Positions 10,043 through 12,167 of a stretch of 64,000 nucleotides of DNA are shown here, in pieces (within the stretch, counting starts at the first letter, position 1; every line of letters starts with the position of its first letter). Under the pieces are notes generated by a model that was given only the letters and a program-made list of their open reading frames with translations, was not told the DNA's origin and searched no databases. Location of the stretch: positions 1-64,000 of the forward strand of contig NC_009486.1 in the NCBI RefSeq assembly GCF_000016785.1. The letters run 5' to 3'. This DNA is from Thermotoga petrophila RKU-1 (GTDB lineage Bacteria; Thermotogota; Thermotogae; Thermotogales; Thermotogaceae). Made by a program: the position numbers and the translations under genes.

Positions 10043-10972
10043 TTATTTTATCAGAGATGTCAACAAAAAAGAAAGGGTACCGGAAACTGCGGGGGTTAAA
10101 AACCACCCACTCAAAATCCTTATTAAAACTTTCTTATTTCCCAGATTCATACCCTTTGAGTAACCAGCTCCCAGAACGGCTCCCACAATGGCCTGAGATG
10201 AAGAAACTGGGATTCCTATCAAGCTGAAAATCCACACAACCATTGCCTGTGATAAAACCGCTATAAGAGAAGTAAAGTGATCTAATTCTATTAGATTTTT
10301 CCCCACCGTCAGCATTACGTTTTTACTGTAGGTGAGAATTCCGATGGCTATACTGATTCCTCCCAGAAAGGCTGCTTGCTCGATCGTCAGGATCTTTCCG
10401 GCGAACACTCCTGTTACGTTTGCGATGTTGTTCGCTCCCAAGGAAAACGCACCGTAAGCACCTATGATCCACGCGGAAGTTTTTATTACTCTGTCTTGAA
10501 TTTGAATGCTGGGAATTCTCCTGAAGAGAAACGAAAGAGCTGGATAGAAGATGAGGCTCAAGAAAAACGCTCCAACTGGTGTTAAAAACCACACAGTAAG
10601 TATTTTCGTGAGTGCAGAAAAATCAATTCCACCAATGCCCATTACCGTGACATTGGCTCCTATTATACCTCCGACCACAGCTTGAGATGTGGAAACGGGT
10701 ATCCCAAGCTTTGTCATGATCGTGACTGTAATTGCACCCGAAAGAACAGCGATACTGGAGAGAAGTAAATCGGAAGTGCTCAGAGAACTGATATTCTGAA
10801 GCCCCCTCGCTCCTCCAAGAACAGAACCCAAAATCACGAAAATGCTCGCCACCATGGTGGCTTTTCTGTAAGAAATGAGACCAGATCCCACAAAGGGACC
10901 GAAAACGTTCGCCGCATCGTTGGCACCCAGCGACCATCCCAGAAAGAGAGAAGGTAAAAGGAGTATGAACAA
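10043..10972 (-). CDS. Inorganic phosphate permease, PiT family
   Basis: A membrane carrier for phosphate, probably with a coupling cation. Two related halves each carry the family signature: GANDAANVFGP near the N-terminus and GANNIANVTG in the middle. SQAVVGGIIGA and SQAIVGAVLGAG repeat in the same way. About ten hydrophobic segments span its 309 residues, compact for the family. The start is a TTG, with AGGAGG seven bases upstream. The usual partner, a DUF47 (PhoU-like) gene, is not adjacent but lies on the other strand at 12821-13462. Confidence 0.9.
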   Translation of the reverse strand: MFILLLPSLFLGWSLGANDAANVFGPFVGSGLISYRKATMVASIFVILGSVLGGARGLQNISSLSTSDLLLSSIAVLSGAITVTIMTKLGIPVSTSQAVVGGIIGANVTVMGIGGIDFSALTKILTVWFLTPVGAFFLSLIFYPALSFLFRRIPSIQIQDRVIKTSAWIIGAYGAFSLGANNIANVTGVFAGKILTIEQAAFLGGISIAIGILTYSKNVMLTVGKNLIELDHFTSLIAVLSQAMVVWIFSLIGIPVSSSQAIVGAVLGAGYSKGMNLGNKKVLIRILSGWFLTPAVSGTLSFLLTSLIK

Positions 10973-11135
10973 TACGACCCCTCCTGTGGTGTGTTTTCTA
11001 TTGTATCACTTTGAACTCTTTTCATGATACCTCCGTCTCAGATAACGAAGGGCAAGAAAACCCAACAGAACTTCACATAATTTTAAAAATAAGGTACCCG
11101 TTTAGGAAAGAAATTAGAATCTTCTCTTAACCTGT

Positions 11136-11150
11136 TACATTTAAAATGTA
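11136..11150. promoter_or_regulatory. Perfect 7-1-7 palindrome, possible operator
   Basis: TACATTT-A-AAATGTA is a perfect inverted repeat of 7-base arms around one base. It lies between two divergent transcription units, one of them a phosphate permease gene. The size and symmetry suit a dimeric repressor site. Which regulator would bind is unknown. Confidence 0.35.
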
Positions 11151-11209
11151 CCATGGAGAACGAAAGTTGACCCCCCTATCCCCCTTGAGATACACCCCCC
11201 ACGGCCTTG

Positions 11210-11237
11210 GCGGGCTCGAAAGAGCCCGCATTTTTTT
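11210..11237 (+). terminator. Strong intrinsic terminator hairpin
   Basis: GCGGGCTC, a GAAA loop and GAGCCCGC form a perfect 8-bp GC-rich stem, followed by A and seven T on the plus strand. It is a textbook terminator, placed 76 bases before the first gene of the plus-strand operon. It therefore ends some upstream transcript that no protein gene accounts for. Confidence 0.75.
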
Positions 11238-11268
11238 GTATAAAAACCCCGCCAAATGTGGCCCGATG

Positions 11269-11277
11269 TGATAGAAT
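11269..11277 (+). promoter_or_regulatory. Extended -10 promoter of the protease-to-flagellar operon
   Basis: TGATAGAAT combines a TG extension with a -10 of TAGAAT (11272-11277), and lies 35 bases before the ATG. No good -35 is present at 17 bases. Arms TGTGA (11267-11271) and TCACA (11292-11296) flank the start region and could form an operator. It is the only promoter candidate between the terminator and the operon. Confidence 0.4.
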
Positions 11278-11312
11278 TTACACAGCAAGTGTCACATTAA
11301 GGAGGGATACTC

Positions 11313-12167
11313 ATGGTAGATATTGGTACCTTGATCTTTCAAATTTTTTGGATGATCTTCATTTTTTCACTCATTACGCCTTTTCTCAAGAATTCTGCCC
11401 TCAAATCAGCCAGAGAAGCCTTGATAAGAGAAATTGAAAAAAAGAGAAACAGCCGTGTGATCACACTGATTCACAGAACGGAATCCATCAGTTTCCTTGG
11501 TTTTCCAGTGCGCAGATACATAGACATCGAAGATTCCGAGGAAATTCTGAGAGCGATTAAGCTAACCCCTTCCGATATGCCCATAGATCTCATACTACAC
11601 ACACCAGGCGGACTCGTTTTAGCGGCGGAACAGATTGCCAGAGCTTTGAAAATGCACAAAGGAAAAGTAACGGTTTTTGTTCCACACTATGCCATGTCCG
11701 GCGGAACATTGATAGCTCTCGCTGCCGACGAGATCATCATGGATGAGAACGCTGTTCTGGGACCTCTCGATCCCCAGATAGGAAACATGCCCGCTCCCTC
11801 CATTCTCGCCGCCGTGAAAAAGAAAGATGTGAACGAAGTGGACGACCAAACGCTGATACTGGCAGACATAGCGGAAAAAGCGATCAGACAGGTGAAAGAG
11901 TTCGTGGTGGAAATTCTTTCAGACAAAGTGCCAAAGGAAAAAGCTGAAGAAATTGCCGATAAACTCTGCAGTGGATACTGGACACATGATTATCCGCTGA
12001 ACTACGAAAAATTGAGAGAAATGGGCATACAGGTGAAAACTAACATGCCCCAGGAAATATATGATCTCATGGATCTTTACAAACAGGCTGAACCTAAGAG
12101 GCCGTCGGTGAACTACATACCGGCTCCCTACTACAATAGAAAGGAGATGGGTAATGGGAATAGATGA
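11313..12167 (+). CDS. SDH-type (ClpP/SppA-fold) serine protease, membrane-anchored
   Basis: The 284-residue protein has an N-terminal membrane segment (about 7-26) and a ClpP/crotonase-fold domain. HTPGGLVLAAEQIA and the nucleophile motif AMSGGTLIALAADEI (Ser in SGG) are followed by LGPLDPQIG, the signature of the serine dehydrogenase proteinase (SDH_sah) family. I infer a membrane-linked proteolytic role, perhaps clearing signal peptides or membrane fragments as SppA does. It has a strong AAGGAGGG ribosome site and is the first gene of the long operon. It overlaps rnhB by 14 bases. Confidence 0.8.
   Translation: MVDIGTLIFQIFWMIFIFSLITPFLKNSALKSAREALIREIEKKRNSRVITLIHRTESISFLGFPVRRYIDIEDSEEILRAIKLTPSDMPIDLILHTPGGLVLAAEQIARALKMHKGKVTVFVPHYAMSGGTLIALAADEIIMDENAVLGPLDPQIGNMPAPSILAAVKKKDVNEVDDQTLILADIAEKAIRQVKEFVVEILSDKVPKEKAEEIADKLCSGYWTHDYPLNYEKLREMGIQVKTNMPQEIYDLMDLYKQAEPKRPSVNYIPAPYYNRKEMGNGNR

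Follow-up and report, generated by a model that had tools for sequence, protein, structure and literature searches.

The window analyzed here, a stretch of 64,000 nucleotides of Thermotoga petrophila RKU-1 DNA, contains a hairpin with an adjoining T-tract in the interval between two divergently oriented genes, one for a phosphate transporter and the other for a serine protease. The arms of the hairpin, GCGGGCTC (11210-11217) and GAGCCCGC (11222-11229), enclose a GAAA loop, and C-runs lie ahead of them at 11171-11176, 11180-11184, and 11195-11200. A first-pass annotation had described this stem, its T-tract, the C-runs, and two GGCC tetranucleotides, all of which are found at the positions given for them. 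It had also remarked that no plus strand gene lies upstream of the hairpin, and indeed the pit/PHO4 gene is encoded on the minus strand. Among 13 terminator-like sites found between 8000 and 15000 (shuffle mean 7.4), this hairpin is listed first. The features of the locus are collected in Table 1.

Table 1. Features of the small RNA locus and its surroundings in the window.
Feature	Position	Strand	Basis or remark
PHO4/Pit phosphate transporter (PF01384), upstream divergent neighbor	10043..10972	-	
Conserved putative promoter region	11105..11147	+	38/43 columns invariant in 8 loci
TAAC element	11128-11131	+	14 nt before the -10 element, inside the promoter region 11105..11147
-10 element TAAAAT	11142..11147	+	consensus reading; TACAAT/TATAAT in relatives
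Small RNA gene	11155..11237	+	predicted transcript of ~83 nt; 5' end placed from the -10 element, 3' end from the terminator
Seed GACCCCCCTATCCCCC	11169..11184	+	common to the second small RNA family
Invariant C-rich core	11173..11202	+	identical in 35/35 aligned loci; predicted pairing with ribosome-binding sites
Terminator stem-loop	11210..11229	+	terminator listing and covariation
U-tract (T-tract in DNA)	11231..11237	+	sequence
Competing partner CCCGCCAA	11248..11255	+	judged not functional; intact in 2/8 loci
Extended -10 TGATAGAAT	11269..11277	+	probable protease-operon promoter; consensus reading
SDH-type ClpP-like serine protease (PF01972), downstream neighbor	11313..12167	+	

An excerpt of PMC3636130 places the transcription start 7 bp past the 3' end of the -10 element; applied to the TAAAAT of this locus, the 7-bp rule (PMC3636130, as excerpted) would put the 5' end of the small RNA near 11155. 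The predicted fold of this putative transcript consists of the terminator and a C-rich region that is mostly open. The putative Thermotoga promoter region conserves a -10-like sequence and a TTAAC element, with no recognizable -35.

Eight of the 14 Thermotogaceae genomes searched carry a match, and the corresponding loci (the window and L003-L009) were aligned. Apart from the promoter region, invariant columns number 6 of 21 in the variable 5' part (11148-11168), 34 of 34 in the C-rich core (here taken as 11169-11202), 26 of 27 in the linker and terminator (11203-11229), and 0 of 28 in the spacer that follows (11238-11265). The terminator stem is unchanged at all eight loci, and the match ends between 11236 and 11248 in five of the seven genomes that match besides the window's. 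In G005 the orthologous interval is C1:934662-934740 on the minus strand. Across the order, the 30-mer CCCCTATCCCCCTTGAGATACACCCCCCAC is the same at every aligned locus in three families, in an alignment that excludes two loci at contig ends (L051 and L052) and one interrupted copy (L054). In this last copy (G026:C1:1944534-1944595), the small RNA breaks off after ACGGCTTTATG and unrelated sequence lies beyond, so that the terminator is lost. A BLAST search with the 83 nt finds matches at E<=1e-11 in 37 of the 45 genomes of the order and at E<=1 in 41, the extra four being short and one of them belonging to a second small RNA family described below. In Thermotogaceae the small RNA lies between pit and the protease gene, the latter being downstream in all eight matching genomes; in a second family of the order it lies between MiaB and the gene of a 435-aa protein with no NCBIfam match, and in a third it precedes MnmE, and its other neighbor is FlhA or some other gene. 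The neighbors thus differ among three families and conservation ends at the terminator, as befits an independent gene.

The same alignments bear on the stem itself. Across its 8 pairs, 94.0% of cells are paired, compared with 85.8% in shuffles, and 7 of the 8 pairs have changed on both sides, compared with 2.4 in shuffles; neither value was reached in any of 500 shuffles, with the qualification that the alignment was fitted to the model and thereby favors the terminator stem. Both this covariation and the terminator listing identify the hairpin as an intrinsic terminator. Sequence comparison therefore establishes the gene, its conservation, and its structure, and strongly supports the reading of 11210-11229 as the intrinsic terminator of an independent plus strand small RNA gene whose transcript is predicted. 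Of the three options that the first-pass annotation had offered for this element (a small RNA, a leader, or the end of read-through), it is the small RNA, encoded by an independent conserved gene ending at the hairpin, that gains strong support.

A covariance model built from 16 of the order's loci, which also catches some genes of the second small RNA family, was then run against 103 Thermotogota genomes and matches 98 of them at E<=0.1 and 70 at E<=1e-5; five genomes have no match at E<=0.1, and 28 more have only matches weaker than 1e-5. In 19 of 20 further matches that were inspected, a hairpin and a T-run come after the C-rich seed or a slightly altered form of it; the remaining one (L246) lacks the C-rich seed. 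A search for an exact 31-mer among 84,980 species, which misses variants with five C, returned seven stretches with titles naming Thermotogota, Thermosipho, or Pseudothermotoga. A viral origin was set aside because the 30-mer has no exact match in viral contigs.

The seed of this RNA is shared with another gene. The 16-mer GACCCCCCTATCCCCC occurs exactly in 30 of the 103 genomes of the phylum, compared with none of 103 for the reversed control, and many of these occurrences lie in a gene of the form GCAGC-GACCCCCCTATCCCCC-CTTGG, which continues into hairpins and a terminator of its own. The window's genome holds a diverged ortholog of this second family at G000:C1:374651-374821, with the seed CCCCCCGATCCCCCC (L093, L262); it is convergent to the neighboring gene, whose product ends in LYIPK as in the second family. 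Orthologs of the second RNA occur in the same 8 of 14 Thermotogaceae genomes as the first. Three Thermotogaceae genomes of one genus (G011, G012, and G013; family f1, genus g5) have neither a first-RNA model match at E<=0.1 nor a member of the second family, an apparent joint loss of both small RNAs. The motif [GT]TAAC stands upstream in 51 of 55 regions of the first RNA family and 17 of 20 of the second, compared with maxima of 19 and 10 in 300 shuffles, and its presence upstream of both suggests a shared regulator. Near the -35 region, the arrangement TTGA..TTAACA recurs ahead of both families (for example L230, L074, and L067), and from its sequence it is possibly the site of one such regulator.

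Candidate targets emerge most clearly in genus groups g10 and g11, which we take to be Fervidobacterium. A pseudopilin-like gene occurs in 9 of the 45 genomes of the order, all of them g10/g11; the label is a tentative one, read from the N-terminus and size of the protein, which has no match in Pfam or NCBIfam. Ahead of its start codon, all nine loci have two sites complementary to two arms of the small RNA: GTATCTCAAGGGGG (or a close variant) comes first and, after a hinge whose length differs between loci, GGGGGTTCTC (or a variant) follows. The predicted duplexes (duplexfold at 37 °C, intramolecular structure ignored) range from -36.9 to -54.5 kcal/mol, and all nine outperform every one of 200 mononucleotide shuffles, the type of shuffle also used for comEA and degV below. 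The encoded proteins are as little as 35% identical to the query. Complementarity to mRNAs encoded elsewhere is therefore conserved at 9 of 9 loci, and in the genome with the interrupted small RNA copy (G026) both predicted target sites are nevertheless kept. Outside the small RNA, TGTATCTCAAGGGGG with at most one mismatch is found 18 times in the 45 genomes, compared with 8 for the reversed control, and 8 times in the 11 g10/g11 genomes, compared with 0. Two genomes (L098 and L099) have a perfect 18-nt site before a membrane-protein gene.

The gene comEA, identified by TIGR00426 above cut-off, matches in 44 genomes, and the comparison with shuffles covers 30 loci among the matches listed. Of the 11 g10/g11 loci among these, 6 have a comEA site that outperforms every one of 100 shuffles, and the other 5 have one that is not better than shuffles. 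Among the same listed matches, none of 19 loci outside g10/g11 beats the shuffles, and comEA was accordingly rejected as a phylum-wide target. G-rich Shine-Dalgarno sequences pair to some degree with any C-rich RNA.

The genome of the window's own species gives a sparser picture. A simple script predicted 416 gene starts in the 464 kb sampled, and among these there is no excess of pairing with the small RNA. A value of -30 kcal/mol or below is reached at 13 starts, compared with an average of 22.7 when the small RNA is shuffled (40 shuffles) and of 12.0 when the shuffling preserves its C-runs (40 shuffles). When up to one mismatch is allowed, GGGGATAGGGGG is found at seven places, namely the small RNA itself, a stretch that overlaps the gene for RNase P RNA (L092), the antisense of the second small RNA (L093), a coding stretch (L094), a place in an rRNA operon (L095), degV (L096), and an unassigned one (L097). 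No general target set is apparent from this search, which lacks a useful control because the reversed control is near-identical and gives the same counts. The sole credible candidate in this species is degV, at which the site overlaps the ribosome-binding site. It beats all 200 shuffles in 3 of the 14 family genomes and not in the other 11, in a test that used one Thermotoga small RNA sequence as the probe for all genomes but G004, those without the RNA included. At the degV starts (L247-L260), unusual G-run sites precede the gene in genomes with the small RNA. Six family genomes with no clear small RNA copy have ordinary GGAGGTG sites there, a correspondence that is suggestive only.

Conserved complementarity to ribosome-binding sites suggests trans-acting repression. 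We consider it probable that the element at 11155-11237 is a trans-acting small RNA that pairs through its core with G-rich ribosome-binding sites and blocks translation. In the mechanism we propose, a regulated promoter would give rise to a short RNA ending at the hairpin, the unpaired C-rich core of which would pair with G-rich ribosome-binding sites on a number of mRNAs, using two arms if the target permits; such pairing would block ribosome binding and turn translation off. On the evidence of these complementary sites, the small RNA appears to switch off mRNAs through their ribosome-binding sites, including those of DNA-uptake genes in some relatives. The complementarity, to ribosome-binding sites of particular genes in one group of two genera, is established by the comparison of sequences; that the RNA is transcribed, that it begins exactly at the predicted 5' end, that the outcome of pairing is repression rather than activation, that transcription is under a regulator, and that the mechanism is the same in the window's species are presumptions of the model.

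An alternative in which the RNA mainly binds a protein or the ribosome, as a C-rich sequestering RNA with only secondary matches to ribosome-binding sites, is unlikely, though it accounts for some of the data. A 30-nt core that does not change in 35 loci is under tighter constraint than most multi-target seeds require, and ribosome-binding sites are not enriched for pairing in the window's species. Against sequestration, the two-armed complementarity is kept at all nine pseudopilin-like loci while hinge lengths vary and the protein diverges to the extent given above, and the seed recurs in the second RNA family on a different scaffold.

A reading of the element as a cis-acting leader or read-through end belonging to the protease operon, its two folds mutually exclusive, is very improbable and largely contradicted by the comparisons. 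The competing pairing that the first-pass annotation had pointed out does exist: TTGGCGGG (11207-11214) can pair with CCCGCCAA, and GGCC at 11203-11206 with GGCC at 11260-11263. The two folds do exclude each other, and in a read-through RNA spanning 11155-11300 they are nearly equal in energy, at -35.5 and -34.6 kcal/mol (37 °C) for folds forced to hold the terminator and the alternative, respectively. When the downstream 83 nt are shuffled with dinucleotides approximately preserved, 1.3% of the shuffles contain an 8-nt partner for the arm region, which makes its presence mildly unusual. The protease gene, moreover, stands downstream throughout the matching Thermotogaceae. Conservation nevertheless speaks against the two folds as a meaningful pair, since 6 of the 8 close relatives do not have a sound second partner: CCCGCCAA is intact in the window and in L003, L004 carries it with one mismatch, and L005-L009 lack it. 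When compensatory changes were sought in both stems, as had been proposed, the terminator stem was found to covary and the alternative stem to have none. The partner also lies just upstream of the extended -10, so that only read-through would transcribe it together with the hairpin. This extended -10, TGTGATA.AAT, is itself kept in all eight Thermotogaceae loci (with one base change in L009) and has no clear -35. The competing fold was therefore rejected as a switch, and no exclusive stem is conserved together with the terminator, as a terminator/antiterminator leader would have it. A leader of either the protease operon or pit is likewise rejected on synteny across three families, in two of which the same RNA adjoins MiaB or MnmE instead; because neighbors change from family to family, the small RNA does not serve the protease operon as a leader.

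It is similarly hard to credit a DNA element, such as a G-tract binding site or a minus strand G-quadruplex. Three runs of 5-6 G on the minus strand and the invariance of the C-runs would fit such an element, but it is flanked on one side by a -10-like element and on the other by a compensated terminator, and the complementary sites sit at mRNA starts. We dismiss as extremely improbable a short coding gene in the open frame of the core, since the stop-free frame that crosses it in some loci has no common start codon or Shine-Dalgarno sequence, the third positions of the core are invariant, and the leading C-run varies in length (6 C in 23 of the 35 loci, 5 C in 11, and 4 C in 1), shifting the frame so that none is kept.

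The preferred reading, a trans-acting small RNA that would pair with ribosome-binding sites, carries a broader proposal that we hold to be evenly balanced: that two seed-sharing C-rich RNAs and the TTAAC element descend from the Thermotogota ancestor as a phylum-wide layer of post-transcriptional control, exercised in Fervidobacterium-like organisms on DNA uptake through comEA and the pseudopilin-like gene. If true, this would rank as a base-pairing small RNA system of exceptional age and deep conservation in thermophiles. The host organisms grow near 65-80 °C, and pairing at ribosome-binding sites in thermophiles raises the matter of RNA-RNA regulation near the limits of duplex stability, for which long G-C-rich arms may be the solution. 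Natural transformation has been reported for Thermotoga (in an excerpt of PMC4029938), and regulation of comEA and the pseudopilin-like gene would, if true, link the small RNA to it. Against the one annotated small RNA listed for Thermotogae in a phylum-wise count (the relevant portion of PMC9029176), the family described here is matched by the covariance model in 70 of 103 genomes at E<=1e-5 and offers a 30-nt core invariant across the aligned loci of an order, a seed-sharing sister family, and concrete testable targets.

Titles and abstracts in the literature searched contain no description of this small RNA; supplements or other papers could hold one. Transcriptome data for Thermotoga maritima yielded 13 putative ncRNAs (Latif et al. 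2013; PMC3636130, as excerpted), among which the small RNA may figure as an unnamed transcript. The same paper names GSE37483 as an accession for transcription start and RNA-seq data of T. maritima. At gathering score, no Rfam model matches in the window or in eight relatives, and the seven models in the cmscan list at E<=10 do not include RoxS/RsaE or FsrA. Weak similarities to mmgR/suhB (E 0.14, 18 bits against a gathering score of 41), NmsRb (E 0.61, 19.2 against 52 bits), and Yfr1 (E 3.2, 12.9 against 38 bits) come from the linker and terminator and are compatible with chance; with only such matches at E<=10 and none at gathering score, a known Rfam family was rejected.

RoxS/RsaE and FsrA, like the present RNA, carry a terminator at the 3' end, and their regulators are Rex, ResDE, and Fur. 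An excerpt of PMC8216469 describes them as C-rich small RNAs of Bacillus subtilis and Staphylococcus aureus and expands FsrA as 'Fur regulated small RNA'. The Thermotogota RNA resembles RoxS, FsrA, and RsaE in being short and in having C-rich regions that pair with targets (PMC8216469, as excerpted), here by computation only, and it is likewise by computation only that its C-rich single-stranded region pairs with Shine-Dalgarno regions. Several C-rich RNAs per genome (RoxS, FsrA, and CsfG) are described in the same excerpt of PMC8216469, as two families are found in Thermotogota. Since no Rfam model matches, the small RNA is not a member of the RoxS/RsaE or FsrA families; it is a separate family, with no previous description found, that would act like them. 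Unlike RoxS/RsaE and FsrA, the Thermotogota RNA comes from another phylum, has three longer C-runs in one invariant 30-nt block, and counts DNA-uptake genes among its candidate targets.
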